Source: Nitrospirota bacterium
GTDB lineage: Bacteria > Nitrospirota > Thermodesulfovibrionia > Thermodesulfovibrionales > UBA6898
Direction: 5' to 3'
DNA length: 64,000 bases
Assembly (NCBI GenBank): GCA_016235245.1
Contig: JACRLO010000020.1
Span: forward strand, 1 to 64,000
Made by a program: the position numbers and the translations under genes. Of the stretch, positions 41,171 through 58,937 are shown in pieces. The first letter of the stretch is position 1; each line of letters opens with the position of its first letter. The notes below the pieces were generated by a model. That model did no database searches and was not told the DNA's origin. It was given only the letters and a program-made list of their open reading frames with translations.

Positions 41171-41185
41171 ACATTGGGGTTTTCG

Positions 41186-41221: not shown

Positions 41222-41268
41222 GATTTTCGCTGAATTAAGCCCTCACGCTTTACCGGCAAGAAATTCTA

Positions 41269-41814: not shown

Positions 41815-42156
41815 AACACTCTCCTTGGATATTTCCTGTTTATACTCAATCGATCGTAGCATCAGCATTATATTAATTATAAGTCGGTTTTTCAATCATA
41901 AAACTTTAATCGCTAAGTATGAACTGCCGCATGAGAATACTTCATGAGGAAAACTCGTTGTTCCGTATAATTCATTACATGCGAAGCAGGCTCTCAGGGG
42001 GCAGCCTCTGAAGAGGGGCTGGAATGCTGTCAGACTCGATAAACAGCGGTCTGAGGAAGAATTACCACTATGAAAACAGCATATACAGATGATATAATAT
42101 AAAATAAGACAAAGATAGTCCAGTTCCTTGCAATGAACTGAAGGGGGAGGTCATTA
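41815..42156. other. 342-base gap upstream of the giant surface protein
   Basis: The gap holds the divergent start regions of pseudopilin copy 2 and the giant gene. Seen are an upstream element shared with copy 1 (ATGCTGATGCTACGATCGAT), TATAAA-type boxes, a 39-base repeat at 42017-42055, a small stem AGTTC-GAACT near 42122-42139, and GGGGGAGG before the ATG at 42157. No other gene is present. Confidence 0.5.
42017..42055. repeat. intergenic repeat, copy 2
   Basis: This is the partner of the segment at 41132-41170 (31 of 39 identical). It contains CAGAC...GTCTG, which could form a short stem. It lies about 200 bases upstream of pseudopilin copy 2. Confidence 0.6.
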
Positions 42157-45100
42157 ATGTCCGGTCACTATGCTTATCTTTCAGATCCTGCGCATCCCAA
42201 AAAACGGTCAATGAATTCAAGAAGGGTTTCTTGCATATCGCTCTTGTGCCTCATACTGCTATTGGCTTTTTCATCCTTCGTCCATGCCTGGGCTCCGGCA
42301 GGTTACTCCGAATATTTCATTCCCGGGGACGAAGTCAATATGGAATCTGTGCTAAACGCCATGGACCTTACGATGACTGCAACTCCCAAGCAGGCCATGC
42401 ACTCCGTGATTACGGTTACTGCCTGGTCGGAAAATACAACGATATATTATGACCACTGGGAAAACGGTTACAACTTCGATCCGAATAACCCTGCAGCAAC
42501 GGCCGATGAGACTTACACACTCGCCACTGCCGGAGCCCAACGGATTTTTGAGTCAACCAGCATCCCAACCAACCCAAGAGGAACGACCACCTACTATGAC
42601 GGAAGTGACCACATATACGTGGCAGGCGGTCCGGTAACCGTCGTCCGTGCGAGCTGGATTCAGGCCACAGGAGTCGAAAACCAGGCTGTGGCTTGGGAGA
42701 TATATCCTGTTCAACCTCAGTTGACGACATATGTAATCCCCTTTGGTGAGGACCTTGGGGCTTCGCTGCCGGACTTCAGCCGGGTTTTCGTCTTTGTTCA
42801 GGCTACCGAGAACAACACTGTTGTGACATTCGACTTTAACGGTGATGGGACTAAGGATACCTTCTGCACTGACATAACTCGTACCGCATGTACTCCAGGT
42901 ACGCAGATCACGCTCAGCAAGGGACAATCGTTTCTCCTTGACAATTGGGCGCTTTCACCACAGGCGGCCCCCTATAATAAGGTCCATACGGGAATGGTGA
43001 TAACGGGGACTGAAACACTGCAGGTAAAGTTTGTCGCCGGTCAGGAACGCACTCCCACCGGGTGGATGGCCAGGGGATTCAGCGCATTCCCCCGTGGCTT
43101 CTGGACAAAAGACTACTATGCTCCTGTGGATAATGAACTGGTTAATACCGATTACTATCTCTACAACCCAAACACTGCTGCAATCACGGTAACATGGGAA
43201 ACCAGGACCACGACCGGTTCGCTCTCTATCCCTGCCGGCCAGACCGTATCCTACAGAACTTTGGCAGGGGATGTTCCAACCGGATCGGGAATCTATTTTA
43301 AGGGGTCCGATGTGTTTTGGGGAGTAGGCTCTGTTGATGCCGGCAACTACTATTATGAGTGGGGGTTCAGTCTCCTCCCTTCGACAATGATGTACAATGA
43401 GCACTATCTTGGTTGGGCACCGGACTGTTTACCCGTAGCAGCCGGTTGCACAAACAATGGTGTATTTCTTGTTCCTGCCCAGGACTATACTACGATCTTT
43501 GTAGATGTCGACAACAATGGCACGGTTGACCAGACCTATACCCTGAACCGTCTTCAGACACAGTATATCACGGCCCCATCCGGGAACCTCTCTATGGCGC
43601 ATATCTGGGCAACCGGACCATTCAGTATGGCATACGGGCAGAAAGGCAATACTACCTATCCCCAGGTCCCGGCCATGGATCTTGGCTATGTATCGCTTCC
43701 GGCAACTGATTTTATTTCAGCCGTCCTTACGGTACAAAAATCGGCTTCGCCTCAGGTCGTTCCAACTGCATCAGGCTCTGTAGCAACCTTCACGATCACG
43801 GCCAGTTCCCAGAAGTACACTGTGGACAACATCACCGTGACCGACACGCTTCCGCCAAATTGGCAGTATGTTACCGGCTCGACCACCATAACCAGGCCAG
43901 ACAAGACCACAGGGACAGCCAACCCGACCGTAACCGGGGCAGGGACTGCTGCTAACCCGTATGTATTGACATGGTCCAGCGCTGATCTTGGGACAAGCGG
44001 CACGATAGCGGAGAACCAGGAGGTCAAAATCGTATTCAATGCTCAGACAACAGCCGTCCTTGCCTCCGGAACGCTAAACCAGAACCGTGTCAAGGCAATC
44101 GGTACAAGGACCTTCGGCACGCCGAGCCAGACTCAGACATTTACTGCAACCGACTTTGCGTACGTTACTTCGGGGTTCTCGCAGATCACGAAAACTTCAG
44201 GGGCAGCTGACCCCGTATTCCCCGGCAACACAATCCCTTATACCGTAACGGTTTCCAACCCTGCGTCTGCAACATCTTCTCTGACAGGCGTCTCTATTTA
44301 CGATCCCCTGCCATCAGGGGTGAGCTATGTGGCCGGCAGCGCAGCAGCGACCTGTATTCTGCCGCGCAATGTGGCCGACTTTTTTGGCTCCACGAACTAT
44401 AACAACTCAAACGGCTCTGTGAGTTGGGCCGCCAACTCCTGGACCGAGTCGGACAGTTACGGCACCGGCCCTGGTGTAACCGGCTTAAACGGACTCGGTG
44501 GATATGTTTGGATCACGGGCGGCCAACTGCAGTTCAGATACATGCTCTCCACGGTGAGTGATAATTTTGCTACCAATGGCAGCTATACCGGCACAGATGG
44601 TTCCCGTAAGTGGATTGGGATAGGACCAGGAACCGTCTCGGTAACAAACGGCTCGCCTGCGGTGGTCGGCACGGGAACAACGTTCACAGGAGGACTCATA
44701 GGCACTGGGGATTCAATCACAATTTTAGGTGTAACATACACCATCTTGAGCGTCACTGACGCCACGCACCTCACGCTAACAACTAACTACGCGGGAACTA
44801 CCGGAACTGGTTTGGCCTATATCGCTCCTGTTGCATGGACAGAAGTCAACGATGATGGTTCAGCCGCTACCGTCGCTAACCAGCATATGTACGTCAGCGG
44901 CAACCGGCTTGTATTTGACCGTAATCCCAGCGCCGTTACTCCATTTTCGATCAGTAGGTCTGCCAATGTCGCGGGCGCTACCAGTGTAACAATCAGCTTT
45001 TTGCCTACTAACCGTGCCGGAGGCGCGGGCAGCGGCGAGGCAGTGGTTGCAGATTATAGTGTAGATGGAGGAGGCTATACGACACTCGGCACCTTTGACG

Positions 45101-48100
45101 GTGGAACAGCAGGTTGGAGCGGGATCACACAGACATACACTCTGAGCCCTTTTACCGGGAACTTTATCACTCTTCGGTTCCGTGCAACTGGGGCGTGGAA
45201 TAACAATAACGACGAAATATATATAGACAATGTTAACATCAGCTTTAATGCCCCGGCAAGCGCGGTAAATACCCAGATCAGGCGCACTGCCAGTCTTACC
45301 GGCGCCACAAGCGCCTGGCTGAACTTCAGCCCTTATAGTTCGACAGGACTCGGCGCTGGAGATACGCTTGTGGTAGAGGCAAGCAGCAGCGGCACGGCAG
45401 GTACATTTGTAACGTTGGCGACCTTCACCGGCGGCGTTCCTGATGTTGCGCCAGCCTATAATCTGACTCCCTATATCTCGGCCACTACCACCATCCAGTT
45501 CCGTGTAACAGGCGGCTTCAACACCGCAGGCCAGACGTTCAACCTGGATAATCTATCGATAGGCTACATTGTGACTCCGGCAACTACGGCCACGGTCGGC
45601 AGTCCGCCCAATTTCGTGGACAGTGCCTCGGCATGCAGCAGTATCCCGGCGGGGGGCTCACTCACCCTGACGTATAGTGTAACCGTGGATGACCCCTTCC
45701 CAACAGGTCAGACCTCAATCACAAACATTGCCTCAACAACATCGGCGCAGATTCCGATGGCCTTAACAGCCTCGGCCACAAATACCGTGCTTATCCCGAG
45801 TGCGCTGAGCGCAGGCACCGGCGGCAAGATCTGGCTTGATGCTGACAGAGACGGGGTACTGGATATCGGTGAACCCGGCATTCCAAACATTGAGGTCACG
45901 CTCAAGGACCGCTTCGGAACGCCGATTGCAACGACCATCACTGACGGCAACGGCCGTTATCTGTTTACCGGCGTCACGCCGGGGACGGGGTATTATGTCG
46001 AGGTAACTGACGGACTTTCATCAGGACTCTCTCAGTCCTTCCCCTATACCACAACACCAGGAGATCTGACGAACAACCGCAGCACCACCTTCACCTTGAC
46101 AGACGGCCAGATTTACACCTCTGCCGGCATCGGATATAGGGCTGCAGCCGGAACAGCGACCTTCGGTGACCAGGTCTGGGTAGATGCCAATGCCAATGGG
46201 GTGCGCGACTCCGGCGAAATTGGCCTCGGCGGGGTAACGGTCAAGCTCTACCAGGACCGTAACAGCGACGACAGGCTGGATATCCTGACCGATTTACCTG
46301 ACGGTGTCGGGACCGTCTCAGCGACAAACAGCTCAACCGCCGTAGTTGGCTCAGGGACAGCATTCTCCGCTCTGAATGCCGGCGATGCTATCACGATTGC
46401 AGGCGTTGCATACACGATTCAGAGCGTCACCGATGCAACACATCTGACCCTGACGGCGAATTACACGGGGACAACGGGAGGCGGCAAGGCATATACAATG
46501 CCTGTCGCAACGGTCAGTAACCCTGACGGCACATACCTTTTCACCGGGGCGGCAGCTTCGGGCACGCAGACCTACTTCGTCTCGGCCGCCACCCCTTCCG
46601 GCTACACAGCAACAACCGGGTCGACGAACCACCGGTTTACCAATGTCGCGGCGGGAAGCACACTGCTCATTGCCGATTTCGGCTTTAACAGAACGACAAC
46701 TACCTATTCGATAAAAGACCGCGTATGGACAGACTCAAATGGCGATGGACTCTTCTCGGGTGAGAGCGGTCTTGCCGGGGTTACCGTCGAACTGCACGAT
46801 GCAAGCCTCAATGTCATCGGCACGACGATTACTGCGGCTGACGGCACATTCATCTTCAGCGGCTTGACCGGCGGTGGTGCCGATTATACTGTGCGCATCA
46901 ACGATACGAGCGGCGTCCTGCTGGACTACTACGGCACAACCTCGTATTCTCTTGCGCTTAAGCGCCCCGAAAGTAATCTCACAACCAGTATTGATCGCGT
47001 GGCTACCCCGCCGCCAAGTTTCGGTTTCCGGCCGCTGCGCAGCATCGGTGATACGATCTTCAGCGATCTGTTGGGTGGCACCAGCGGTGTTCAGGATGCC
47101 GGAGAGCCGGGGATCGCAGGGGTTGTCGTCAGCCTCTACCGCAACATTGCCCCTCTCGGGACGTTTGACGGGAGCGACACCCTTATCAGCACTGTAACGA
47201 CTGATGCGTCAGGGCAGTATCTGTTTTCGGGTCTTGCCGATGGGGAGTATATTGTAAGCGTGCCGGTTCCTGCAGGCTACAGTTTCATCCCAAACGGCGT
47301 CGTTAACCCTGACCTTGACGGCAATCCGGCAAACGGAATTCAAAACAGGGTTACCATAACAGGCGGAGTAAGCGACTTAAACAAAGACTTCGGTTTCCAG
47401 GCCTCCAGCCCCCGTACCGTCTCCGGAACCGTATGGGATGACCTTGACGCAGACGGTGTCATAGACGGCGGCGAAGCCGGACTTGCGGGCGTTACGATCG
47501 ACATCCTCTCGGGGAGCACTGTTGTGGCCACGGTCACTACCAACGCATCGGGTAACTACACCGCCCCGGGGCTCGCCTCAGGTATCTACACGGTGCGCGT
47601 CACAGATACGACAAGCGTTCTCACTGACTACATCTCTACCTTCGAAAAGACCGAGAGCACCACCGGTCCCTTTAACTTTCAGGAGTCCGTAAACCTGACC
47701 GGCGGCGACGTTGCTGATGTAATATTCGGGTTCAAGGTGCCCACGCCCACGCTTGTGACCCTTTCGGATTTCAGCGCGTATAGCGATAAGGGCAGGTTTG
47801 TCGTGCAGTGGAAGACATCTTCCGAGACAGACACTGCAGGATTCTATCTGCAGCGGCTCGATGAAAAGACCGGCAGATACAGGCAGATCAACAGCAGCCT
47901 CCTGCCTGCGCTGATTACTTCCCCGCAGGGCGGCACCTATAGTCTCATCGACAACGGCGCGTCTTTGACCAGGAGTAATACCTATCTGCTTATGGAGATT
48001 GAAGGCAAAGGCAGAAAAAATGCCTACGGACCTTTCACGATAGCGGCAGGAGCAGGCAATGCAGCAGAAAGCCAACAGAGCAGGAAGGCCGGATGGGAAC

Positions 48101-50307
48101 GTGAAGGGGAGATGGCCATTACGGACGGCAGCACAGGAAATACCGCTGCCGACGAAGTATCGGACTATACGCGTGCAGGAAAAGCGATTCCTGCTGAAAA
48201 ACAGAAAGTTCTGGATGCCATGAAAAAGGCAAGAGCCGCCTCCGACCTCCTCCAGAAGCAGAAGACCGGCAATATGGTCAAGATCCCGGTACACAAAGAC
48301 GGGCTTTACTATCTGGAGTCCGCAGAGATCTCGTCGCTGCTTGGCATGGCTGAGACTAAAGTCAGACAGCTTATTAAGTCCGGGAACCTGGCACTAAGCA
48401 ATCAGGGCAATATAGTCGCCTATATACCGGCTGATGATATGGCAGGACTGTTCTTCTTCGGTCAGGGGATAGACAGCTTGTACACAAAAGAAAATATCTA
48501 CTGGCTCTATAAGGGCAAGGGACAGCAGATGGGCAGAGTGGAAGGTGTTGGTCCAGCACCTTCAGGATACAGCGCAGTTACGGAGACAGTCCATATTGAA
48601 GAGGATAAAGTTGCCGCGCCGGTGCTTGCCCATGGCCCGGAATCTGACTACTGGTTCTGGGATTATATAATAGGTGGCAACCCATCCCTGGGGACAAAGC
48701 GTTTCGAACTTCAGGTCTTTGGTGTTGCTGACGTATCAACATCAGCCGCGCTGAGTGTCAGACTTCACGGCCTGACCAGCACCGGCGCAGCGAACGACCA
48801 TCATGTCACGATCAGCTTAAACGGGACGGTTATCGGAGAAGACCGATGGAAAGGCGCTGAGGAGCGTCTCGTCAATCTGAATTTCAGTCAGAGCCTCTTA
48901 CATGGCGGAGCAAATTCTATCGAGGTCAAGGGCCTGCTTGATGCAGGTGTTCCCTACAGCATATTTTATCTGGATTCTTTTGACCTGACCTATGAAAAGG
49001 TATTGGAAGCCCATGACAATTCACTTATGTTCAGGGCAGAAGGCGCTCTGCCTCTGACAGTGTATGGCTTTACACAGCCTGATCTTTTTGTCCTCGATGT
49101 AACTGACCCGGACTGGCCGATCTTCAATATGGCAGCGACTATCGACGGCTCAGACGGAAATTACCATCTCAGTTTTACGCCCACACCAGGCGCACGGTAT
49201 CTGGTGACAGCCTCCGATGCCGCAGCGCCTGTCAATGCCTGGGCAGACAGCCCTTCCACACTCTTATCCCGGCATAACAGGGCTGATTATATCATCATTA
49301 CCACAAAGGAACTTGCTGCAGCTGCCGGGGAACTTGCCCATTATCGGGAGGCTCAGGGACTAAAAACCTTGGTTGCAGATCTGGAAGATATCATGGATGA
49401 ATTCAATTATGGCATCTCAAACCCTGAGGCCATTCATGGTTTCCTCGCTTACGCCTATACCAACTGGAAGCAGGCACCGAAATATGTACTGCTTGCAGGA
49501 CACGGGACCTATGATTACAGAGATAACATGGGTATCGGAGACAATCTGGTGCCGACCCTGATGGCTGAAACGCCACAGGTTATTTCCGCCTCGGACAACC
49601 TTTTTGCAGACATGGACGGTGACCATGTCCCTGATATTGCAATCGGAAGGCTTCCTGTTCTGACCGCGGAAGAATTGCGTGGAGTAATCGGCAAGATTAT
49701 ATCCTATGAGAGCAATGCAGGCAGCCGTGTGATAATGCTTGCGGACAATCCGGATGACGGCGGCAATTTCCCCGCTGACAGCGATCAGATCGCAGCGCTT
49801 GTTCCGGCGGCATACCCGGTGTCCAGGATATATCTTTCTGCGTATACGACGGCTCAGGCCCGGCAGCTTCTCTTCGATGAAATAAGCAGGGGGCCGGTGC
49901 TGTTAAACTACACGGGCCATGCAGGCATGGATCGTCTGGCCAGCGAGGGGCTGCTGCGGGTGAGCGATGTGGCTTCGCTTCAAAACAGCAGAAAACCTTT
50001 TGTTCTGGCAGGCATGACATGCGCTGTGGGCAACTTTGCCCTGGCGGGATATAATTCATTGGGCGAGGCCCTTATGACAAAAAACCCGGGAGGCGCCGTG
50101 GCTGTCTGGGCTCCGTCCGGACTCTCGTATAATCACCTGTCAAAAATTCTGAACGAGCATTTCTTCCGGGGTTCATTCGGAAACGGAAGCGTTACGTTAG
50201 GAGATGCCGTATTAAGGGCATTCAGAAATTATCACACAACCGGCAGTCCTGTGTATATTATGGATATGTTCAACCTGCAGGGTGACCCGGCTTTAAGAAT
50301 CTGGTAA
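42157..50307 (+). CDS. giant secreted protein with DUF11 and SdrD_B-type domains and a C-terminal C25 (gingipain-like) protease
   Basis: The 2716-residue protein has a signal peptide (CISLLCLILLLAFSSFVHAW). Residues about 40-520 form a region resembling the adhesion module found before DUF11 repeats. Two DUF11-like domains follow, the second (from about 670) interrupted after YVAGSAAATC and resumed at GSPPNFVDSASACSS. The insertion holds galactose-binding-like beta domains (FDRNPSAVTPFSIS and a second, related one). Five SdrD_B-type domains follow (GGKIWLDADRDGVLDIGEPG, FGDQVWVDANANGVRDSGE and so on), then a fibronectin-like part and the C25 protease. The catalytic pair is H2588 (NYTGHAG) and C2622 (GMTCAVG). 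No sorting signal is seen at the C-terminus. The gene ends 13 bases before the PqqD-like gene. Confidence 0.86.
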   Translation: MSGHYAYLSDPAHPKKRSMNSRRVSCISLLCLILLLAFSSFVHAWAPAGYSEYFIPGDEVNMESVLNAMDLTMTATPKQAMHSVITVTAWSENTTIYYDHWENGYNFDPNNPAATADETYTLATAGAQRIFESTSIPTNPRGTTTYYDGSDHIYVAGGPVTVVRASWIQATGVENQAVAWEIYPVQPQLTTYVIPFGEDLGASLPDFSRVFVFVQATENNTVVTFDFNGDGTKDTFCTDITRTACTPGTQITLSKGQSFLLDNWALSPQAAPYNKVHTGMVITGTETLQVKFVAGQERTPTGWMARGFSAFPRGFWTKDYYAPVDNELVNTDYYLYNPNTAAITVTWETRTTTGSLSIPAGQTVSYRTLAGDVPTGSGIYFKGSDVFWGVGSVDAGNYYYEWGFSLLPSTMMYNEHYLGWAPDCLPVAAGCTNNGVFLVPAQDYTTIFVDVDNNGTVDQTYTLNRLQTQYITAPSGNLSMAHIWATGPFSMAYGQKGNTTYPQVPAMDLGYVSLPATDFISAVLTVQKSASPQVVPTASGSVATFTITASSQKYTVDNITVTDTLPPNWQYVTGSTTITRPDKTTGTANPTVTGAGTAANPYVLTWSSADLGTSGTIAENQEVKIVFNAQTTAVLASGTLNQNRVKAIGTRTFGTPSQTQTFTATDFAYVTSGFSQITKTSGAADPVFPGNTIPYTVTVSNPASATSSLTGVSIYDPLPSGVSYVAGSAAATCILPRNVADFFGSTNYNNSNGSVSWAANSWTESDSYGTGPGVTGLNGLGGYVWITGGQLQFRYMLSTVSDNFATNGSYTGTDGSRKWIGIGPGTVSVTNGSPAVVGTGTTFTGGLIGTGDSITILGVTYTILSVTDATHLTLTTNYAGTTGTGLAYIAPVAWTEVNDDGSAATVANQHMYVSGNRLVFDRNPSAVTPFSISRSANVAGATSVTISFLPTNRAGGAGSGEAVVADYSVDGGGYTTLGTFDGGTAGWSGITQTYTLSPFTGNFITLRFRATGAWNNNNDEIYIDNVNISFNAPASAVNTQIRRTASLTGATSAWLNFSPYSSTGLGAGDTLVVEASSSGTAGTFVTLATFTGGVPDVAPAYNLTPYISATTTIQFRVTGGFNTAGQTFNLDNLSIGYIVTPATTATVGSPPNFVDSASACSSIPAGGSLTLTYSVTVDDPFPTGQTSITNIASTTSAQIPMALTASATNTVLIPSALSAGTGGKIWLDADRDGVLDIGEPGIPNIEVTLKDRFGTPIATTITDGNGRYLFTGVTPGTGYYVEVTDGLSSGLSQSFPYTTTPGDLTNNRSTTFTLTDGQIYTSAGIGYRAAAGTATFGDQVWVDANANGVRDSGEIGLGGVTVKLYQDRNSDDRLDILTDLPDGVGTVSATNSSTAVVGSGTAFSALNAGDAITIAGVAYTIQSVTDATHLTLTANYTGTTGGGKAYTMPVATVSNPDGTYLFTGAAASGTQTYFVSAATPSGYTATTGSTNHRFTNVAAGSTLLIADFGFNRTTTTYSIKDRVWTDSNGDGLFSGESGLAGVTVELHDASLNVIGTTITAADGTFIFSGLTGGGADYTVRINDTSGVLLDYYGTTSYSLALKRPESNLTTSIDRVATPPPSFGFRPLRSIGDTIFSDLLGGTSGVQDAGEPGIAGVVVSLYRNIAPLGTFDGSDTLISTVTTDASGQYLFSGLADGEYIVSVPVPAGYSFIPNGVVNPDLDGNPANGIQNRVTITGGVSDLNKDFGFQASSPRTVSGTVWDDLDADGVIDGGEAGLAGVTIDILSGSTVVATVTTNASGNYTAPGLASGIYTVRVTDTTSVLTDYISTFEKTESTTGPFNFQESVNLTGGDVADVIFGFKVPTPTLVTLSDFSAYSDKGRFVVQWKTSSETDTAGFYLQRLDEKTGRYRQINSSLLPALITSPQGGTYSLIDNGASLTRSNTYLLMEIEGKGRKNAYGPFTIAAGAGNAAESQQSRKAGWEREGEMAITDGSTGNTAADEVSDYTRAGKAIPAEKQKVLDAMKKARAASDLLQKQKTGNMVKIPVHKDGLYYLESAEISSLLGMAETKVRQLIKSGNLALSNQGNIVAYIPADDMAGLFFFGQGIDSLYTKENIYWLYKGKGQQMGRVEGVGPAPSGYSAVTETVHIEEDKVAAPVLAHGPESDYWFWDYIIGGNPSLGTKRFELQVFGVADVSTSAALSVRLHGLTSTGAANDHHVTISLNGTVIGEDRWKGAEERLVNLNFSQSLLHGGANSIEVKGLLDAGVPYSIFYLDSFDLTYEKVLEAHDNSLMFRAEGALPLTVYGFTQPDLFVLDVTDPDWPIFNMAATIDGSDGNYHLSFTPTPGARYLVTASDAAAPVNAWADSPSTLLSRHNRADYIIITTKELAAAAGELAHYREAQGLKTLVADLEDIMDEFNYGISNPEAIHGFLAYAYTNWKQAPKYVLLAGHGTYDYRDNMGIGDNLVPTLMAETPQVISASDNLFADMDGDHVPDIAIGRLPVLTAEELRGVIGKIISYESNAGSRVIMLADNPDDGGNFPADSDQIAALVPAAYPVSRIYLSAYTTAQARQLLFDEISRGPVLLNYTGHAGMDRLASEGLLRVSDVASLQNSRKPFVLAGMTCAVGNFALAGYNSLGEALMTKNPGGAVAVWAPSGLSYNHLSKILNEHFFRGSFGNGSVTLGDAVLRAFRNYHTTGSPVYIMDMFNLQGDPALRIW
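44629..44823 (+). repeat. inserted small beta-domain, copy 1 (within the giant gene)
   Basis: This 65-residue segment (GTVSVTNGSPAVVGTGTTF ... SVTDATHLTLTTNYAGTTGTG) interrupts a beta domain between SRKWIGIGP and VAWTEVNDDG. The same type of domain occurs again at 46309-46500, and similar modules are common in phage tail and surface proteins. Confidence 0.65.
46309..46500 (+). repeat. inserted small beta-domain, copy 2 (within the giant gene)
   Basis: This 64-residue segment (GTVSATNSSTAVVGSGTAF ... SVTDATHLTLTANYTGTTGGG) interrupts an SdrD_B-type domain between DDRLDILTDLPDGV and PVATVSNPDGTYLFTG. It is the second copy of the module at 44629. Confidence 0.65.
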
Positions 50308-50320: not shown

Positions 50321-50629
50321 ATGAATAATCAGGGCGCCCAGTTGCAGGAAAAGGTCTTTGTAAAGAATGAGGATATCGTCACCCGCAAGATTACCGGCGA
50401 GTTGTTCATTGTTCCGGTGAGGGGAAAGCTGGCAGACATGCAGAGGATCTTTACTCTCAATCCGGTTGCGGAATACATATGGCATTCCCTTGACGGCCTG
50501 ACACGCATCGAAGATATCCGCAAAGGCATCCTGGCGACCTATGACGTCGATGAACAACAGATTGATTCTGATATCAGGGATTTTATCGCAGAGCTGTTGG
50601 AAGCGGACTTAATCAAAGAGCGAGCGTGA
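50321..50629 (+). CDS. PqqD-family peptide-binding protein (RiPP recognition element)
   Basis: This 102-residue protein is a PqqD-like winged-helix domain, which binds the leader of a precursor peptide and presents it to a modifying enzyme. Evidence is the strand-turn region ITGELFIVPVRGKLADMQRIF, the PqqD hallmark LNPVAEYIWHSLDGLTRIEDI (Asn, Trp) and a helix VDEQQIDSDIRDFIAELLEADLI. It lies 13 bases after the giant gene and overlaps the radical SAM gene by four bases (GTGA), so the two are coupled. Confidence 0.87.
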   Translation: MNNQGAQLQEKVFVKNEDIVTRKITGELFIVPVRGKLADMQRIFTLNPVAEYIWHSLDGLTRIEDIRKGILATYDVDEQQIDSDIRDFIAELLEADLIKERA

Positions 50630-51729
50630 ATATGGATTGCCCGGAAACTGTTTTCACTGACAACACAAATTATCTCAGGGACTTCACCGCAAGATCGGCC
50701 AGACTTCGGGTGCCGCTTTCCGGAAGCCTCGATCTCACGCATCGCTGCAACCTCCGGTGCCTCCACTGTTATACCGGTGATCGTTCCGGGGATATGCCCA
50801 TCGCAGAGATGGATACCGGGAGGATATTGTCACTTCTGGACGAGATCTGTGATGCCGGCTGTCTCTATCTTCTGCTGACCGGCGGAGAACCCCTGCTGAG
50901 GGAGGATTTCCCGGAAATTTATCGTTATGCAAAGGAAAAAGGTTTTTTGATAACCGTATTTACGAACGGAACGCTGATAACAGATAAAATCGGAACGCTT
51001 TTTGAGGAGCTGCCGCCCCGCACCGTCGAAATAAGCCTGTACGGTGCTACCGCGCCGACGTATGAGAAAATTACGGGGGTAAAGGGCTCATACCGTCAAT
51101 GCCTTTCCGGCATCAGGAAACTGCTGGAGCAAAAGATAAACGTCAGACTGAAGACCATTCTTATGGCTCCTAACCGTCACGAGTTTTTTGCAATAGAAGG
51201 AATGGCAAAGGACTTTGGGGTGAAATTCCGCTTTGATGCAGCCATATTCCCCCGTTTAAACGGGGACCCGTCTCCGGTCAATCTCAGAGTTTCACCTGAG
51301 GAGGCGGTCGACAAGGAGTTTTCAGATCATGAAAGGGTAGCCCTCTGGGAAGCGTCTCTAAAAAATTATCGTCATGGATCTGCCACTGATGATCTTTACC
51401 ACTGCGGGGCCGGGGTTACCGGTTTCCATATTGACCCCTGCGGAAGTCTGCGCCCCTGTCTCATGGCGACCACCCTTTCCTATGACCTTCAGAAAGGAGG
51501 CTTTTCCCCTGGCTGGGAAGCAATAACGTCCCGCAGCAGAGAGAAAAAAGCAGACCGGGACTTCACCTGTAATACCTGTGATAAGAAACTGCTCTGCGGT
51601 TATTGTCCTGCTTTTTTTGAGCTTGAAAACAGGGATGCTCAGGTGCGTTCCGAATACCTTTGCGCCATGGGGAACACCCGCAGCAGACAATTGCAGCATA
51701 TCAATACAAAAGGAGCTCGGCATGGATAA
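50626..51729 (+). CDS. radical SAM/SPASM peptide-modifying enzyme
   Basis: This 367-residue radical SAM protein carries the cluster motif C41-x3-C45-x2-C48 (RCNLRCLHC), the glycine-rich LTGGEPLLREDFPEI, FTNGTLIT and SLYGATAPTYE for SAM binding. A C-terminal SPASM-type region has further cysteines (HCGAG, PCGSLRPC, CNTCDKKLLCGYC, YLCAMG) for auxiliary clusters. The GTG at 50626 overlaps the PqqD stop; an in-frame ATG at 50632 is also possible. With a PqqD partner and a small cysteine peptide next to it, it is a likely RiPP maturase making thioether or C-C crosslinks. The chemistry is inferred. Confidence 0.88.
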   Translation: MNMDCPETVFTDNTNYLRDFTARSARLRVPLSGSLDLTHRCNLRCLHCYTGDRSGDMPIAEMDTGRILSLLDEICDAGCLYLLLTGGEPLLREDFPEIYRYAKEKGFLITVFTNGTLITDKIGTLFEELPPRTVEISLYGATAPTYEKITGVKGSYRQCLSGIRKLLEQKINVRLKTILMAPNRHEFFAIEGMAKDFGVKFRFDAAIFPRLNGDPSPVNLRVSPEEAVDKEFSDHERVALWEASLKNYRHGSATDDLYHCGAGVTGFHIDPCGSLRPCLMATTLSYDLQKGGFSPGWEAITSRSREKKADRDFTCNTCDKKLLCGYCPAFFELENRDAQVRSEYLCAMGNTRSRQLQHINTKGARHG

Positions 51730-51892
51730 GAGCAGCAGCGAAATGAAAGACAAGCAGGCCTACGAAAAACCAAGGCTCAGGGTAATCGAGCTGGTCGCTG
51801 AAGAAGTTATGGGCATCGGATGCAAAACGGTATCCGGCCCGGGATCCGGCAGCGTTTGTGCCGCTGTAGGGTGTTTTGAAATCGGCTCCTGA
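51722..51892 (+). CDS. candidate RiPP precursor peptide (56 residues)
   Basis: This small gene is easy to miss. It starts with an ATG overlapping the radical SAM stop by eight bases and has a strong AAAGGAG ribosome-binding site six bases before. The predicted peptide has a charged leader (KQAYEKPRLRVIELVAEEVMG) and a core that begins near GCK at residue 33-35. The core is rich in Gly and Ser, with cysteines at C34, C46 and C51 and a C-terminal Ser (IGS). The EKPRLRVIEL...EEVMGIGC pattern is typical of leader-core boundaries in radical SAM-modified precursors. The product is unknown. It lies between the maturase and the HPr-kinase-like gene. Confidence 0.72.
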   Translation: MDKSSSEMKDKQAYEKPRLRVIELVAEEVMGIGCKTVSGPGSGSVCAAVGCFEIGS

Positions 51893-51917
51893 ACAGGATG
51901 AAAATTGTCCGCACCGT

Positions 51918-52844
51918 ATGGAACGTGAGCAGACGGAAAATGTTATGCAGATGGAAATCGCCGGTGTTAATTTTGCCATCAGCTGCCGGCATCCGCTCTC
52001 GGTCGACAAGCTTGCAGGGATGTACCGGCAGTTCATACAGGGGGCCATCCCTCCCGGGGGGGATATAAACGTCAGCGTCAGCATTGAGACCGGTACTATG
52101 CCAGATACCCGGCAGATGACGAAGATCTTTGATACCGGGCGGTCGTGGTCCATGTTTAAGCGCGACAATGATTATTTCCTTTCGCTCAATGTTCCCACAA
52201 CAGACGGTCAGGCAATCTGGCTCGCAGCCTTTGATATCCATTGTGCCACCATTTCAATTTACTGCAGTGACCTTTTCCTGAACAGCGAGAGTGGTCGTAC
52301 AACGCTGTCCACTCCTCTCAACTATCCACTGGATCAGCTCCTGCTCATGTATATACTGGCAGGGAGAGGCGGCGCATTGCTTCATGCCGCAGGACTCTGC
52401 ACGGACAAAAGGGGATACATCTTCCCCGGCCGCTCTGGTGCAGGCAAAAGCACCATTTCACGTCTTTTCCTCGGGAAATCCGGAGCAGAGATGTTCAGCG
52501 ACGATCGTATGATAGTCAGAAAAATAGACAACACGTTCAGGGCGTTCGGTACGCCCTGGGCAGGCGACGCCAGTATCGCCGAAAATAAGAGCGTTCTGCT
52601 CGACAGGATCTTCTTTATTCATCAGGCGAAGACCAATCTGCTGAGAGAGCTGACGCCGAAAGAAGCTATCGAACGACTCATGCCGGTGACCTCTATCCCC
52701 TGGTATGACGAGACGGCATTTCAAAACATTCTTGCGTTTTGCGAAGACCTGGTTTTGAATATACCTGCGTATGAACTGCATTTCATGCCTGACCGTTCCG
52801 TAGTCACCTTTATTGAAAATTTCGCAGCCCGAAACTCGGTCTGA
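51918..52844 (+). CDS. HPr-kinase-like protein
   Basis: This 308-residue protein resembles the HprK family C-terminal kinase domain in RiPP clusters. Its P-loop is FPGRSGAGKSTISRLFLGK near residue 190, followed by EMFSDDRMIVRK, a metal-binding Asp motif. The N-terminal half is a different fold (beta-rich, for example WSMFKRDNDYFLSLN). Kinases of this type in lasso peptide clusters (PadeK, ThcoK) phosphorylate the C-terminal Ser of the precursor. The ATG at 51918 is preferred over the TTG at 51876 that would overlap the precursor gene, though no clear ribosome-binding site fits, and later ATGs at 51945 and 51951 are possible. Confidence 0.78.
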   Translation: MEREQTENVMQMEIAGVNFAISCRHPLSVDKLAGMYRQFIQGAIPPGGDINVSVSIETGTMPDTRQMTKIFDTGRSWSMFKRDNDYFLSLNVPTTDGQAIWLAAFDIHCATISIYCSDLFLNSESGRTTLSTPLNYPLDQLLLMYILAGRGGALLHAAGLCTDKRGYIFPGRSGAGKSTISRLFLGKSGAEMFSDDRMIVRKIDNTFRAFGTPWAGDASIAENKSVLLDRIFFIHQAKTNLLRELTPKEAIERLMPVTSIPWYDETAFQNILAFCEDLVLNIPAYELHFMPDRSVVTFIENFAARNSV

Positions 52845-52903
52845 TCTCTGCCTGAGGCGAGAGAGCCGTTGACGGCAGCGCATGAATACCGTAGGATAAA
52901 ACC

Positions 52904-53371
52904 ATGCATTACAAAACAGCCGACCATTTCGGGGAACTCGCCGGAGCCTTGCTCAAAGAGGGGGTACAACTTTCATTCCAGGCAGGCGGAAGGTCCATGT
53001 CTCCCTTCATCCAGGACAAAGAAACGGTCATCATTGAACCACCTTCAAGGACATTGCGCGTCGGTGACGTAATCCTGTTTAAGACTGAACGCAATCAGCT
53101 GATATTCCATCGCATTGTGGGGAAAAAGAGGGACGGGTATCTCACGAGAGGCGACGCTGCCTCTCATCCCGACGGGATCGTGCCGCATCGCGCAGTACTC
53201 GGCAGGGCTGTCCGTGTTGTTGGCGGACTGAACTTTCATCTCTGGTTTCCTCTTGGTGCAATCGTGGCTCATGCGCTGAAGCTCAGAAGACATACGGCGC
53301 TCTTCACCATGCTCAGGATACCGGGGAACCTGCTATTGCGCAGACTTCGTTTAAGGGACAATCCTCAATAG
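52904..53371 (+). CDS. S26-type signal peptidase-like protein
   Basis: This 155-residue protein has the signal peptidase I/S26 core: GRSMSPFI with nucleophile S31, LRVGDVILFK, IFHRIVG with H69 as the likely general base (as in SipW/ER-type peptidases) and the box YLTRGDAASHPDG with the conserved Asp. The usual N-terminal membrane anchor is missing and a basic C-terminal tail (LLLRRLRLRDNPQ) follows a hydrophobic stretch. In RiPP loci such a peptidase may remove the leader peptide or release the product. It starts 59 bases after the kinase gene on the same strand. Confidence 0.8.
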   Translation: MHYKTADHFGELAGALLKEGVQLSFQAGGRSMSPFIQDKETVIIEPPSRTLRVGDVILFKTERNQLIFHRIVGKKRDGYLTRGDAASHPDGIVPHRAVLGRAVRVVGGLNFHLWFPLGAIVAHALKLRRHTALFTMLRIPGNLLLRRLRLRDNPQ

Positions 53372-53451: not shown

Positions 53452-54096
53452 ATGAGGCTCCAGACGATATTGACCATTGTCCTCGCCCTCATCCTGATCC
53501 CTTCAGGTTTTGCTTTTTCCCAACCCCGGGGAACTGATGAGACATGTGATACGCTCAAGGCTGCGATAAAAAACGGCGTAGAACCACGTTCTGCACTACG
53601 GGACGTTCTAAAAACAAAACCAGAAGTCTGTCCAATCATACGATGCGCCCTCGAGACAGGAATCCCGCTAAGGACAGTGCATCTTGCGGCGCGTGACGCA
53701 GCGCTGCAGGACGATATTGTCACCCGCTGCTCAAATTCTTCATGCAGCCAGACATTCAGGCTTTTTGAAACAGATCAGGTATGCCGGTCAATAAAACAGG
53801 ATGTTGAGAAAGGCCGGGACGCTGCGGTAGTGACCCTTGAAAAACTCCGTCAGGGATATCAGTCCTGCACCGTACTGAAGTGCGCGGTGGCCTCAGGAGC
53901 TGATCTTGACTCAGTGATCAGGGCTGCTCATGAAGCAAACGTTTCGGACGACATAATTTCCCGCTGCTGCATGGACGGCTGCGCAGATCCCTATCGCGTT
54001 GCCAGGCTTCTTCATGAACAAGACAATCTCATTCCCGCTGATAGAACGAAGCCAGGAGGGACAAGATCCGGGTATCTCAGCCCATCGCGATTCTGA
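53452..54096 (+). CDS. secreted cysteine-repeat protein of unknown function
   Basis: This 214-residue exported protein has a signal peptide (LTIVLALILIPSGFAFSQP). It contains two copies of a roughly 39-residue repeat: C-PIIRCALETGIPLRTVHLAA...DDIVTRCSNSSC and C-TVLKCAVASGADLDSVIRAA...DDIISRCCMDGC, each with four regularly spaced cysteines. A cysteine-bearing segment before each repeat (ETCDTL and DQVCRSI) suggests disulfide-linked helical units. I do not recognise a family. Its position between the RiPP-like set and the exopolysaccharide genes suggests an envelope role. Confidence 0.68.
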   Translation: MRLQTILTIVLALILIPSGFAFSQPRGTDETCDTLKAAIKNGVEPRSALRDVLKTKPEVCPIIRCALETGIPLRTVHLAARDAALQDDIVTRCSNSSCSQTFRLFETDQVCRSIKQDVEKGRDAAVVTLEKLRQGYQSCTVLKCAVASGADLDSVIRAAHEANVSDDIISRCCMDGCADPYRVARLLHEQDNLIPADRTKPGGTRSGYLSPSRF

Positions 54097-54208
54097 AAGC
54101 GAGCCATGTCGTATATGCTGCTTCGCATTTTCCTGAACAGGTTATGCCCTTTCGTTATTTCCCCTGCTGTATTGGTAATTTGTCAGATAATATGAGATAA
54201 TATTGGTC

Positions 54209-55732
54209 ATGTATCCATTTACCAGAATAAAAATAAGAGCAGCGTATTTATTCGTTGCAGTTCTCTTCAATACGTGCGCACTCCTGTCAGCCCAGCCTGT
54301 CAGCGCAGCTGAGACGGTCATATCGTCAGCGGAAAACACCGTTGGCGGGCAGGCGGCTCAGCTCGAAATGGGCCGATTCAGCGATATTGAGACCGCAAAG
54401 GCATTTCTGAAAAAGCTCGTTGAAAGTGGGTACACCGGCGGCATAACGGAAGAAAAAAATAGCAGCGGTCAGGGAGAGTATCAGGTCTATGTATTATTGC
54501 CGGTAGCCGCAGTCGGGGACGCCGGCTCAGAGAGTATCTCATGGTCTGTCCTGGGGGGAAAAGGCAAGAACGTACATGCCGCCCTAAGCCTCACCGGCAT
54601 CTTCACAGACAATGCCTTCAACGCAAACCAGGACAAACAGAGCGATTTTTCTATGTTTCTGACTCCGGAGCTCTGGTTGAATCTGCCGCACACTGACAAG
54701 GATGTTTCCTACGAAAGCGTTTCGCCACGTTCTGCAGGAGGACGGCTCCTTAATACGCTGACGGGCGAACGGCTCTACGGGTACCAGGCAACACTCTATT
54801 ACCGTACCGATCTGCCGCTGATCACGGCGAAGACCTCACCATACGGCAACACCGCTTCACACAGGTTTGCAGCCGGCATTGCCTTTGTAGGCAGCAGGGT
54901 GTCGCTCGGCATATCTGACCAGTTCGATAAGTCCTATCAGGAGAGGGAGGCTGGCCAGATCATCTCAACGGATGCCCGCGACCGCTATGATGCAAACCGG
55001 TTCAGCGCCGCAGCAGCCTATGATACAGGAAATCGCATTCTGCTCAGCCTCGACTATGTAAATTTTATCACCAATTACAGCAGCGACACGGCACGTGCCC
55101 TCGACCGCCGTGACTTTGGCATAACGCCGGCGCTTCGGTACCGGCTCACACCGAAGATCAACCTGTTGGCAGAATATTCATTCTATGGCATTTCCTACGA
55201 CAGCGATGACACGCTGGATAGCACAGAGCACTATCTCATGGGAGGGCTCGAATGGAAACTTACAGAAAAGTCGTTCGGCAGGATCAAGGCTGGTTACGAA
55301 CTTAAGGACTTTAAGCACGGCGACCGGTATGGGGGATATAGCTTTGAACTTCAGGCAGAGCACAGACTGACGCCAAAGACACAGCTGTCGCTCTCCGCCT
55401 ATCGTAAAACCAATGAAATGCGGGTGGCCGGAACTGCCTTTGTCGTCTCAACAGGGGAGCACCTTTCACTGACGCATATGATAACCTCAAAGATAACCGG
55501 AGCGCTCATGCTTTCCTTCGAAAACGACAAGAACAAGGGGATTTCTCCTGCTTCGATCTCGCAAACGACCGTCAACGACAGGATCTATCAGGCCGGCATA
55601 GAGGTTCAGTATGCCTTCCGCAGATGGCTGAGGGCCCGAGCCGAATACCTTTTCACCACAAAAAACTCCTCGAATCCTGCTTTGGAATACCGCTCCAATA
55701 CATTGCTCCTGGGCCTTACCGGGTCATTCTGA
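54209..55732 (+). CDS. outer-membrane beta-barrel protein of the polysaccharide locus
   Basis: This 507-residue protein has a signal peptide (FVAVLFNTCALLSAQPVSA). A short SPOR-like segment (LEMGRFSDIETAKAFLKKLVESGY, followed by YQVYVLLPVA) comes next. From about residue 110 it is a repetitive amphipathic beta pattern typical of an outer-membrane barrel, ending with the aromatic-last signal (SNTLLLGLTGSF). Barrels of this kind often precede Wza/Wzc genes in Gram-negative exopolysaccharide loci. The ATG at 54209 is preferred to the TTG six bases earlier. Confidence 0.8.
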   Translation: MYPFTRIKIRAAYLFVAVLFNTCALLSAQPVSAAETVISSAENTVGGQAAQLEMGRFSDIETAKAFLKKLVESGYTGGITEEKNSSGQGEYQVYVLLPVAAVGDAGSESISWSVLGGKGKNVHAALSLTGIFTDNAFNANQDKQSDFSMFLTPELWLNLPHTDKDVSYESVSPRSAGGRLLNTLTGERLYGYQATLYYRTDLPLITAKTSPYGNTASHRFAAGIAFVGSRVSLGISDQFDKSYQEREAGQIISTDARDRYDANRFSAAAAYDTGNRILLSLDYVNFITNYSSDTARALDRRDFGITPALRYRLTPKINLLAEYSFYGISYDSDDTLDSTEHYLMGGLEWKLTEKSFGRIKAGYELKDFKHGDRYGGYSFELQAEHRLTPKTQLSLSAYRKTNEMRVAGTAFVVSTGEHLSLTHMITSKITGALMLSFENDKNKGISPASISQTTVNDRIYQAGIEVQYAFRRWLRARAEYLFTTKNSSNPALEYRSNTLLLGLTGSF

Positions 55733-55809
55733 AGACCGCTCTGTCGCGTTTCCTCATCGGCCTGCAGCAGATGCTTTAAGCGGCTAAAATGGTCTATAAT
55801 TATAGCGTT

Positions 55810-56613
55810 ATGAAAAAAATAACCTGCATCTGCGTTATCACCCTTCTCCTCGGATTTTTCAGTGCAGCGGCATACGCTGAGCATGATTACATCATAGGTC
55901 CTGATGATGTGATCAGGGTGACAGTTTACAACCACCCTGACCTCGCGGCAACAGATCGCATAAGCGGTGAGGGGGTCATCATGCTGCCGCTGATCGGCGA
56001 TGTAAAGCTCTCCGGCCTTTCGGTCGAGCAGGCCGCTAAAAAAATCAGCCTGCTCCTGAGCGACGGCTATATCATGGACCCGAAGGTCTCGGTCTTTGTT
56101 GTGGAGTTCCGCAGCAAAAAAGTAATGATCATGGGGCAGGTCTTTCGCCCCGGCGTACTGACGCTCAGCGGCAGTACAACCTTCCTCGAACTGCTCACAC
56201 TCGCCGGAGGGCTGACCAAGGAGGCAGGCGACAAGGCTACCATAAAGCGCAAGTCTGCCGATGCAGGCAAGGAAGGGGAAGGTCTCATCACAATCGACCT
56301 CAGAAGGCTCATCGAACAGGGCGACGCCTCACTCGATGTCACGCTTATGGACAACGACAGCATTTATATCTCAAAGGCAGGCGTTTTCTACATCACCGGC
56401 GAGATAAAAAAACCTGATGCGTACCGGCATGAGGAGGGTCTCACCGTGATCAAGGCTGCGACCATGGCCGGCGGGTTCTCCGACAAGGCAGCCCCGGGAA
56501 GAATCAAGATCATCAGAAAAGTGGACAAAAAAGAGAAGGTGATCGAACGGACGGGCATGGACGAACTCGTCCTTCCCGACGACATTATTATCGTGCCGGA
56601 GAGTTTTTTCTGA
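55810..56613 (+). CDS. Wza-like polysaccharide export protein
   Basis: This 267-residue periplasmic/outer-membrane protein has a signal peptide (CICVITLLLGFFSAAAYA). A Poly_export domain follows (YIIGPDDVIRVTVYNHPDLA, then ISGEGVIMLPLIGDVKLSGL), then two SLBB domains (VMIMGQVFRPGVLTL and FYITGEIKKPDAYRH). No lipobox is visible, so unlike E. coli Wza it may not be lipidated. A TATAAT at 55795-55800 lies only nine bases before the ATG, which may give a very short leader. It overlaps the next gene by one base (TGATG), so export and kinase are coupled. Confidence 0.9.
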   Translation: MKKITCICVITLLLGFFSAAAYAEHDYIIGPDDVIRVTVYNHPDLAATDRISGEGVIMLPLIGDVKLSGLSVEQAAKKISLLLSDGYIMDPKVSVFVVEFRSKKVMIMGQVFRPGVLTLSGSTTFLELLTLAGGLTKEAGDKATIKRKSADAGKEGEGLITIDLRRLIEQGDASLDVTLMDNDSIYISKAGVFYITGEIKKPDAYRHEEGLTVIKAATMAGGFSDKAAPGRIKIIRKVDKKEKVIERTGMDELVLPDDIIIVPESFF

Positions 56614-58829
56614 TGTTCGAAGATAAAGAAATTCATCTGCGTGATTACCTGAATGTCGTATTAAAGCACCGGCATAAGGCCGTTCAATTCTTCGCCATTA
56701 TTTTTGCGCTGACGCTGCTTGTCACGTTTTCGACCACCCCTATTTATGTTGCGACCACAAAGGTCCTGATCGAAAAAAGCGAACCGGCAAATCTTTCACT
56801 CAACCCCTACGCCATGATGTATGACCCTGATTTCAGTGAAACCCAATTCCAGCTCATCAAGAGCTTCTCCGTTGCCCAGCGGGTCGTCAGGATGCTGGGG
56901 CTCGGCCAGCGTGCCAATATTGCAGCAGGCAGCGAAACCGGCACAAATATCGTTACCGGGACATTTAATTGGTTTCGCGACCTCATCTCAACGGTCCTTC
57001 ATATCGGAGGAGCAAAGCCGGTTCCCTCACCCTCTGATCCGGCGTTGGCAGTAACGCGGGAGGAAGACCCCCTCAAGCTCTACCAGCAGGCCAAAATAAT
57101 CAGCAGTGCCATTACGGTCACTCCGGTAAAAAACAGCAAGATCGTCAATATCAGTTTCGCGTCGCCTGACCCCAAGATGGCTTCGCTGATCGTCAACACC
57201 GTTGCCAAGGCTTATACCGATGAGGTACTCGACATAAAGATGGGGTCTTCCCAATACGCACTAAAGTGGCTCACCGAGAAGGCAGATGAGGAGCGGGCAC
57301 GCCTTAACAAGACCGAAAAAGAGCTCCAGGAATACATGCGCGACAAAGATATCGCGACCCTTGAAAATAAAGTAACGATGGTGCCTGAGCGCATGTCCGA
57401 AATAGCCGTCAAGCTTGCGCAGTCTGAAACAAAGCGGAAAGAGCTGGAGACTCTCTATAATGCGGTGAAGGTATACGCGGTAAACCCTGAGGGCGCTGAC
57501 GAAATTCCGGCCATTTCGGCTGATCCGGTCATGCAGTCCCTGAGGTCCCAGATCCAGAAGGCAGAGCAGACCGTTGCCGAACTTTCACAGAAATACGGTC
57601 AGCGTCATCCCGCTATGGTCAGCGCGGCCTCTGAACTGAGTGGGCTCAGGGATAAGAAACGGGAGCAGGTCAAGCGCGTGGTCGCAACGATCAGGAATGA
57701 ATACGAAATCGCACGGTCAGGAGAGGAAAACCTGCGCAGACTGGCAGGTCAGGCAAAGTCTGAAACCCTGAGTCTTGGAGAAAAATTTGTCCAGTACGGC
57801 GTGCTTAAACGGGAGGCCGAAACGAGCAGGGAACTCTTCGGAGCGATCGTCAAGCGAATCAAGGAGCAGGGGATAACACAGGACATTAAGACCGTTACGG
57901 TCTGGGTAATCGAAAAGGCCGAAGTGCCTGACAGCCCTGCCAAACCGAACAAGTTCAGGAACATCCTCCTGGGCCTTGTTATCGGTCTGATGGGCGGTGT
58001 CGGACTCGCCTTCTTTATCGAGTATCTCGACAACACGGTCAAGTCAGCAGAGGATATCGAGCAGCGCTTCGATGTCCCGGTCCTCGGGATCATAGAACTG
58101 CTCGACAAGGAGAAGTGCCCGGCCGATGATATTGTACTGCGCGAGCCCCATGCCAATATCACCGAAAACTATCGGGCGGTAAGGACAAGCATCATGCTCT
58201 CTACCGCTGATAAGCCACCGAAGCACATTCTGGTAACGAGCATTGCTCCGCAGGAAGGCAAAACGACCACCGCTGTAAACCTCGCGGCAATCCTGGCGCA
58301 GTCCGGCCATAACGTTCTGCTCATTGATGCAGACCTGCGTAAGCCGAGACTTCGCCGGATTTTCGGGATCGAGAGCGATTCCGGATTAAGCACCTATCTT
58401 GCCGGCACGTCTGACATCGAATTCTTCACCCCGAAAGGGATCGAGCATCTGCAGGTCGTACCTTCCGGTCCTGTGCCGCCGAATCCCTCCGAGCTTATCG
58501 GATCAAGGCACTTGCAGGACCTGATTACCTCATTGGAAGAAAAATTTGATTTTATCGTCTGGGACTCCCCGCCGCTCTTTGCCGTTGCCGAGAGTCTTGT
58601 TCTGAGCAAAATGCTGAGTGGAACAATCATTGTTACACGAGCAGGCAAGACCACATACAAAGAGCTCGAGCGCGGTATCAAATCCATACATGACATCGAA
58701 GCACGTATTCTGGGTATTGTCATCAACGGGCTGAATATCAAGGAAAACATGCGGTATAACTACCGTTACTACAGTTACTACGGTGCAGCGGAACATGAAC
58801 CGCCGGAAAAGCTCCCGCATGACTCCTGA
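56613..58829 (+). CDS. Wzc-like tyrosine autokinase and chain-length regulator
   Basis: This 738-residue inner-membrane protein has a Wzz domain with a first membrane segment (HRHKAVQFFAIIFALTLLV) and a long periplasmic coiled coil. A second membrane segment (ILLGLVIGLMGGVGLAFFIEY, near residue 450) and a cytoplasmic BY-kinase follow. The kinase has Walker A APQEGKTTTAVNLA, Walker A' VLLIDADLRKPR and Walker B FDFIVWDSPPLF. The C-terminal Tyr-rich tail (RYNYRYYSYYG) is the autophosphorylation cluster. It controls polymerisation and export with the upstream Wza-like protein. Confidence 0.92.
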   Translation: MFEDKEIHLRDYLNVVLKHRHKAVQFFAIIFALTLLVTFSTTPIYVATTKVLIEKSEPANLSLNPYAMMYDPDFSETQFQLIKSFSVAQRVVRMLGLGQRANIAAGSETGTNIVTGTFNWFRDLISTVLHIGGAKPVPSPSDPALAVTREEDPLKLYQQAKIISSAITVTPVKNSKIVNISFASPDPKMASLIVNTVAKAYTDEVLDIKMGSSQYALKWLTEKADEERARLNKTEKELQEYMRDKDIATLENKVTMVPERMSEIAVKLAQSETKRKELETLYNAVKVYAVNPEGADEIPAISADPVMQSLRSQIQKAEQTVAELSQKYGQRHPAMVSAASELSGLRDKKREQVKRVVATIRNEYEIARSGEENLRRLAGQAKSETLSLGEKFVQYGVLKREAETSRELFGAIVKRIKEQGITQDIKTVTVWVIEKAEVPDSPAKPNKFRNILLGLVIGLMGGVGLAFFIEYLDNTVKSAEDIEQRFDVPVLGIIELLDKEKCPADDIVLREPHANITENYRAVRTSIMLSTADKPPKHILVTSIAPQEGKTTTAVNLAAILAQSGHNVLLIDADLRKPRLRRIFGIESDSGLSTYLAGTSDIEFFTPKGIEHLQVVPSGPVPPNPSELIGSRHLQDLITSLEEKFDFIVWDSPPLFAVAESLVLSKMLSGTIIVTRAGKTTYKELERGIKSIHDIEARILGIVINGLNIKENMRYNYRYYSYYGAAEHEPPEKLPHDS

Positions 58830-58937
58830 TTCCAGACTACATGCAAAATGATGCCTGCGCGGCAGGCAGGTAACCGCGAAGGTCTGCGCCTGATATGGAG
58901 ACGATCTGACGACGAAGCCAACGCAGTTAACGTTTAG

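Follow-up and report, generated by a model that had tools for sequence, protein, structure and literature searches.

What product is made by a compact run of genes at positions 50321-53371 of a 64,000-nucleotide stretch of DNA from a Nitrospirota bacterium (assembly GCA_016235245.1, contig JACRLO010000020.1, positions 1 to 64,000 of the forward strand; the whole stretch is called the window below), where a PqqD-like protein, a radical S-adenosylmethionine (SAM)/SPASM enzyme, a 56-residue peptide, an HprK-like kinase and an S26 peptidase are encoded one after the other? Our analysis indicates that the unit probably makes a ribosomally synthesized and post-translationally modified peptide (RiPP). 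Its leader would be held by the PqqD-like protein and cut off by the S26 peptidase, its core would be modified by the radical SAM enzyme, its C-terminal Ser would be phosphorylated by the kinase, and a C25 peptidase would be its further partner. A first reading of the letters (the sequence-only reading) had proposed that the 56-residue peptide is the substrate of a RiPP pathway, and the comparative evidence presented here supports that proposal.

Gene organization and conservation

All five frames lie on the plus strand, and their adjacency, their overlaps and the ribosome-binding site that had been reported were confirmed in the sequence. The first gene (50321-50629) encodes a PqqD-like, leader-binding RiPP recognition element (RRE; PF05402, 4.8e-16) and overlaps by GTGA (50626-50629) with the radical SAM/SPASM gene (50626-51729; PF04055, 1.8e-21). 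The precursor gene is located at 51722-51892; its ATG at 51722 overlaps the radical SAM stop by 8 bases and lies 6 bases 3' of a ribosome-binding site, AAGGAG, at 51710-51715. The kinase frame (51876-52844) can be read from a TTG at 51876 that falls inside the precursor gene, but an ATG at 51918 or 51945 is the more likely start, because it fits the relatives better and the N-terminus of the predicted model is of low confidence. The last gene (52904-53371) encodes a signal-peptidase-like protease of the S24/S26 group, which Pfam (PF00717, 1.2e-5) and NCBIfam place with the archaeal (Ser-His) type and which we propose as the leader peptidase. The five genes had been described as a complete set and all of them stand, although the C-terminal Ser of the peptide was overlooked, as was a giant plus-strand gene (42157-50307) for a secreted peptidase of the C25 (gingipain) family with SdrD_B-like repeats, which ends 13 bases 5' of the PqqD gene. 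The unit starts with this C25 gene as its sixth, first-in-order member. Promoter and terminator scans were uninformative, with counts modestly above those of shuffled sequences.

When the radical SAM protein was used to search bacterial and archaeal genomes, six clear relatives emerged, spread over Nitrospirota, Desulfobacterota, Kiritimatiellota and Omnitrophota, and all six have a short gene with this leader at the equivalent position. The regions around the best matches were retrieved, and each gene family was mapped by profile. The exact order C25-PqqD-radical SAM-precursor-HprK-S26 is found in 13 loci, and most of the remaining loci retain the PqqD-radical SAM-precursor-HprK core with an S26 gene close by; other families each turn up in at most seven of the sampled loci. 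One large family (f29) has three radical SAM genes, often with tandem precursors, and one Omnitrophota locus has five. A match in genome G342 (L055) was left out, as no pathway genes adjoin it, and locus L081 is doubtful. In two loci the S26 gene is fused to a GNAT acetyltransferase domain (L064, 7254-8312; L068, 7423-8427), which suggests an additional acetylation step in those clusters.

Precursor peptide

The precursor, MDKSSSEMKDKQAYEKPRLRVIELVAEEVMGIGCKTVSGPGSGSVCAAVGCFEIGS, harbors the leader motif YEKPRL at residues 14-19, a conserved AEEV block at residues 26-29 and a core with three Cys, and it ends in Gly-Ser, the Ser codon being located at 51887-51889. A profile built from seven peptides (that of the window and those of the six relatives) found matches in 43 of 396 sampled genomes, all belonging to the same phylum as the genome of the window. 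The leaders of three close pairs differ by silent and replacement changes in ratios of 9:2, 6:2 and 5:2, against a baseline of 51 silent and 174 replacement changes possible, and judging from these substitutions the leader is under purifying selection. The precursor frame is real and not a product of chance, because it recurs at this position in dozens of genomes and the leader changes are mostly silent. Conservation in syntenic relatives had been put forward as a test of the RiPP proposal, and the frame is conserved across four phyla.

The family comprises 46 distinct precursors that lie beside both radical SAM and kinase genes. The leader of these peptides has the conserved motif [YW]xxP, and their core, mostly with three Cys, is hypervariable; in some loci the precursors are tandem. 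An encoded precursor with a conserved leader and a variable core beside modifying enzymes is the arrangement expected of a RiPP pathway, and these loci show it. The final two core Cys have CX4C spacing in 15 of the 18 C25-linked precursors and in 6 of the 28 others (some of them truncated upstream), which is a tendency only. The idea that a Lys after the first core Cys tracks the C25 peptidase, as a gingipain-like specificity would have it, was dropped: the C25-linked precursors of L010 and L011 have no such Lys, and many C25-unlinked ones carry it.

Radical SAM enzyme

The enzyme contains both the CxxxCxxC motif and the seven auxiliary-cluster Cys of the SPASM pattern. Across 35 sequences C41, C45, C48, C260, C278, C315, C318, C324 and C346 are invariant, and C327 is nearly so. 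Its AlphaFold2 model (predicted local distance difference test, pLDDT, 91) has SkfB, PqqE, SuiB and CteB as nearest structures, with 15 to 22% identity to the nearest solved ones in structural alignments. The likeness to SkfB and CteB, which are of the sactipeptide/ranthipeptide type, and to PqqE lies in the radical SAM/SPASM fold with its SPASM Cys; we know of no sactipeptide/ranthipeptide or PqqE cluster with an HprK-like kinase or an S26 leader protease of this kind.

No cut-off of a curated radical SAM family is reached. The top NCBIfam scores are those of AhbD, NirJ2 and MftC, as might be expected if the product of the enzyme were of the heme type or a non-peptide cofactor, with the short gene encoding a regulator or bystander peptide. 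These scores, however, lie between 100 and 113 bits, where cut-offs of 265 to 500 apply (AhbD, 113.5 against 500; MftC, the best peptide maturase, 100 against 265), and the substrate is therefore not fixed by sequence alone. Throughout, a PqqD domain is present together with a [YW]xxP leader, some loci have tandem precursors, and SkfB and PqqE are the solved structures closest to the enzyme, so that a cofactor or heme-type product is very improbable. Membership of a heme or cofactor family was rejected in view of the scores, the nearest solved structures and the context.

In the radical SAM tree the pathway enzymes form a clade (100/98) whose sampled members all come from PqqD/precursor/HprK loci; ScmE, ScmF and those other radical SAM proteins of this genome that entered the tree fall outside it. 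Grouping with non-peptide enzymes, named beforehand as a finding that would speak against a RiPP, did not appear; the enzyme sits in this well-supported clade of its own. Where a C25 gene lies directly upstream, the radical SAM enzymes make up one subclade (100/99), which spans Nitrospirota, Desulfobacterota and Kiritimatiellota; one of its members comes from locus L047, which is cut off before the C25 position. In the RiPP pathway that we favour, the enzyme, assigned to this step by exclusion, would alter the Gly/Ser/Cys-rich core. The formation of one or more thioether links, on at least one of the three conserved Cys, appears most plausible, although other radical chemistry is possible; it is the simplest guess, and of all steps of the pathway it is the least certain.

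Kinase and C-terminal serine

The assignment of the kinase as HprK-like is upheld by its predicted fold, though Pfam barely detects it (Hpr_kinase_C, E = 0.14) and its start is uncertain, as described above. The AlphaFold2 model (pLDDT 92) has a PEPCK/HprK fold, with Z about 13 to PEPCK, and HPr kinases are also matched, both via Foldseek and by profile. The P-loop is at residues 185-193. The catalytic positions are conserved as His (43/43), Lys (43/43), Asp (42/43) and Asp/Glu (43/43), the last one being Glu in 16 of the 43 sequences. This His-Lys-Asp-Asp motif is essential in lasso-peptide kinases, and the HprK homologue of paeninodin-type lasso peptides phosphorylates precisely a conserved C-terminal Ser (PMC9266682).

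The last residue of the 46 distinct precursors is Ser in 42, Thr in two and Gly in two, while Ser makes up 11% of core residues. As a control for circularity, only precursors whose profile match ended at least three residues before the C-terminus were considered, and 29 of these 31 end in Ser. In a separate search, loci were found via the kinase alone and then scanned for short YxxP frames; all 18 candidate precursors end in Ser, many of them belonging to one family and being mutually similar. One (L135) has an unrelated GGGGQ core and still a terminal Ser, which is the only core residue besides Cys that hardly drifts. The window system thus resembles the phosphorylated lasso peptides in combining a conserved C-terminal Ser with the H, K, D and D/E positions of the kinase. 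It could also be that the product is a RiPP whose kinase targets an internal Ser/Thr of the core or has a regulatory role, the terminal Ser being kept for another reason, such as recognition by the radical SAM or C25 enzyme. The kinase LppK of the Linear Polyphosphorylated Peptides (LPP) acts on S3 and not on the C-terminus (PMC13381572), and the related kinase ScmC of SynChlorMet cassettes is found with precursors whose last residue is Y, F, P, E, G, V or D. Of the four window-system precursors without a terminal Ser, however, two carry Thr, the other simple hydroxyl residue, the rest of the core varies freely, and the target of PadeK, ThcoK and SyanK is the C-terminal Ser (PMC9266682). We consider an internal or regulatory role unlikely, and the C-terminal Ser is the phosphorylation site that we infer: if it works like PadeK and ThcoK, the kinase would add one or more phosphates there.

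Leader recognition and removal

The PqqD-like protein scores below the NCBIfam cut-offs of ScmD, lasso B1 and PqqD, and the S26 protein reaches 47 bits against TIGR02228 (cut-off 51.85). The Ser, His and Asp (D84) of the latter are kept in 39/39 sequences, and a second Asp (D90) in 33. In LPP biosynthesis, Tyr(-16)xxPro is bound by the RRE, which brings the end of the leader to LppS, a signal-peptidase-like enzyme of archaeal type that requires Ser, His and Asp and cuts the YxxP leader (PMC13381572). By this analogy, the PqqD-like protein would grip the [YW]xxP motif (Tyr14-Glu-Lys-Pro17) and present the precursor. The S26 peptidase would cut the leader, probably near residue 29 in the AEEV block, because the distance between AEEV and YxxP equals that of the LPP cleavage site. 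What the analysis shows is the order of the genes, their conservation, the catalytic residues and the predicted folds; from such comparisons we infer the chemical steps and their order, and likewise the role of the C25 peptidase.

Comparison with known systems

The LPP peptides, described in May 2026 from Bacillota with no mention of a radical SAM/SPASM enzyme (Popov et al., 2026, PMC13381572), are the closest known system. Both systems have a discrete RRE, an HprK-like kinase and an archaeal-type Ser-His SpI-like leader protease, together with a YxxP leader, a variable C-terminal part and nearby polysaccharide genes. LPP clusters as described are limited to Bacillota and have neither a radical SAM/SPASM enzyme nor a C25 peptidase; their leader ends in FET and their kinase acts on core Ser3. 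The LPP motif YxxPxVLxHQxIxFETxxS is absent from the window precursor, where YxxP is followed by RLRVIELVAEEV with no HQxIxFET, and neither the core nucleoside triphosphate (NTP) transferase nor the MsbA-like transporter of LPP lies beside the window cluster. The phosphorylated lasso peptides come second. The paeninodin-type systems (PadeK, ThcoK, SyanK, PsmK; PMC9266682) likewise have a His-Lys-Asp-Asp kinase of the HprK family, a conserved C-terminal Ser, a discrete B1/PqqD-type RRE and a [YW]xxP leader, but the window cluster instead carries a radical SAM enzyme and an S26 peptidase. No macrolactam cyclase (asparagine-synthetase-like) or B2 Cys protease was seen among the reading frames in and next to the window cluster, no genome-wide cyclase profile search having been made. 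The window pathway belongs to neither of the two systems; it looks like a branch, so far undescribed, of a peptide family that was first reported in 2026.

In the open-access literature covered, no account of a radical SAM RiPP with an HprK-like kinase was found, and searches on C25 peptidases with RiPPs and on SynChlorMet brought up none of the window system. The sequence-only reading knew of no description of the exact five-gene set, and this literature yielded none, though RRE, HprK-like kinase and signal-peptidase-like protease are jointly known from the LPP peptides of Bacillota (PMC13381572).

A third system, SynChlorMet (TIGR04248-TIGR04251), shares PqqD-like, radical SAM/SPASM, HprK-like and adjacent S26 genes as well as short, Cys/Gly-rich YxxP precursors, and the window unit might on these grounds be taken for a divergent SynChlorMet cassette. 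The NCBIfam cut-offs are, however, missed for ScmC (24.6 of 125 bits), ScmD (32.4 of 100), ScmE (77.9 of 400) and ScmF (71.1 of 400), and all window-system members tested fall below them. The tree separates the two systems at 100/98, the genome of the window has no ScmE, and genome G286 has both systems side by side. The two systems also differ in core type and last residue. SynChlorMet cassettes have two radical SAM families (ScmE and ScmF) and CxxG-rich cores, mostly with at least four Cys, and 10 of their 11 candidate precursors do not end in Ser. The ten come from true cassettes (ScmE 546-647 bits) and the eleventh, which does end in Ser, from an atypical locus with three radical SAM genes (L149). 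Membership was rejected in view of the cut-offs, the tree and the co-occurrence of both systems, and such a cassette is the least credible account of the unit. The candidate SynChlorMet precursors (L136, 7217-7426, 8236-8466 and 11955-12182; L146, 5733-5957; L147, 7749-9008; L148, 2797-2940; L075, 8119-8376) are short YxxP peptides in which CxxG is repeated; as many as four lie in tandem (L147), and ScmC/D/E/F and S26 genes adjoin them. Four of them were scanned and matched no NCBIfam model; these proposed precursors for the cassette are a by-product of this work.

C25 peptidase and neighboring genes

The C25 protein contains the peptidase domain at residues 2378-2715 (PF01364, 279.5 bits, 6.5e-83) and five SdrD_B repeats, and the His and Cys motifs of Peptidase C25 (NYTGHAG and MTC) are conserved in most relatives. 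The likely start is the ATG at 42211, before the signal peptide. In a survey of 36 genomes, C25 was found in 17 RiPP-cluster genomes, being single-copy and at the cluster in all except G384 and G107. G384 has two copies, one at a cluster and the other beside an S26 gene at a contig end, a layout that matches its congener G124, while the copy of G107 is unlinked to its cluster. C25 was absent from ten cluster-negative relatives, and one more gave a weak partial match. Because a signal peptide can be read in its sequence, the peptidase would have to act outside the cytoplasm; it may work beyond the inner membrane, either on the product or together with it.

Downstream of the unit, a plus-strand gene at 53452-54096 encodes an exported, Cys-containing protein of 214 aa with no reliable family, which is a possible partner. 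It has homologues in 21/24 positive versus 0/11 negative genomes; they are mostly unlinked and lie next to the cluster in its own genus and in G182, G320 and G374. Directly downstream follow exopolysaccharide genes (54203-61331), with products resembling a beta-barrel porin, EpsE-like export, Wzc and an O-antigen ligase. LPP and paeninodin clusters often adjoin capsule loci, and LPP and pseudomycoidin clusters include a nucleotidyltransferase-like enzyme. An NTP_transf_5 gene, which we take to be kin of LppN and PsmN, occurs in 13/15 positive versus 3/15 negative genomes, usually unlinked, a difference confounded by relatedness and genome size. The only one in this genome (G000:C20:143696-144421; L143, 9508-10713) lies among polysaccharide genes of the same contig, at a distance of about 90 kb.

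Elsewhere in the window, a ribonucleotide-reductase-like gene (32728-34951) seems split into overlapping frames (32728-33183 and 33140-34951), possibly by a frameshift or an assembly error. On the minus strand, two near-identical tandem pseudopilin-like genes (40341-41895) each encode a prepilin motif, KGFTLIEVIVVAG.

Biological significance

Some observations weigh against the pathway proposed here. The best radical SAM scores are of the heme type (AhbD/NirJ), though far below cut-off, and the three core Cys do not pair, which leaves the core chemistry open. The internal site of LppK (PMC13381572) and the ScmC precursors without a terminal Ser mean that the presence of a kinase alone does not predict a C-terminal site. 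Window-type clusters have no recurrent exporter, a cluster of ABC transporters being common to six sampled loci only, and many loci come from related genomes, so that the counts are of non-independent events.

A bolder proposal goes beyond the RiPP pathway itself. PorU is a C25 sortase, that is a transpeptidase, and on this model the C25 enzyme could attach the peptide to a surface polymer or to the giant repeat protein of which it is itself a part. The product would then be a new RiPP class with a radical-SAM-modified core and polyphosphate on its C-terminal Ser, serving as a structural or adhesive tag and not as a free natural product. We regard this elaborated version as a long shot.

If the proposed RiPP pathway is true, a single peptide unites radical SAM core chemistry with C-terminal Ser (poly)phosphorylation, and does so in phyla for which the literature covered reports no phosphorylated RiPPs. 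The analysis provides a family of precursors and predicts at which residue they are phosphorylated and in which region they are cleaved. The purpose of the LPP peptides is left open by their description (PMC13381572), and the tie of a giant secreted protease of the gingipain family to a RiPP cluster in many genomes gives a handle on what the peptide is for.

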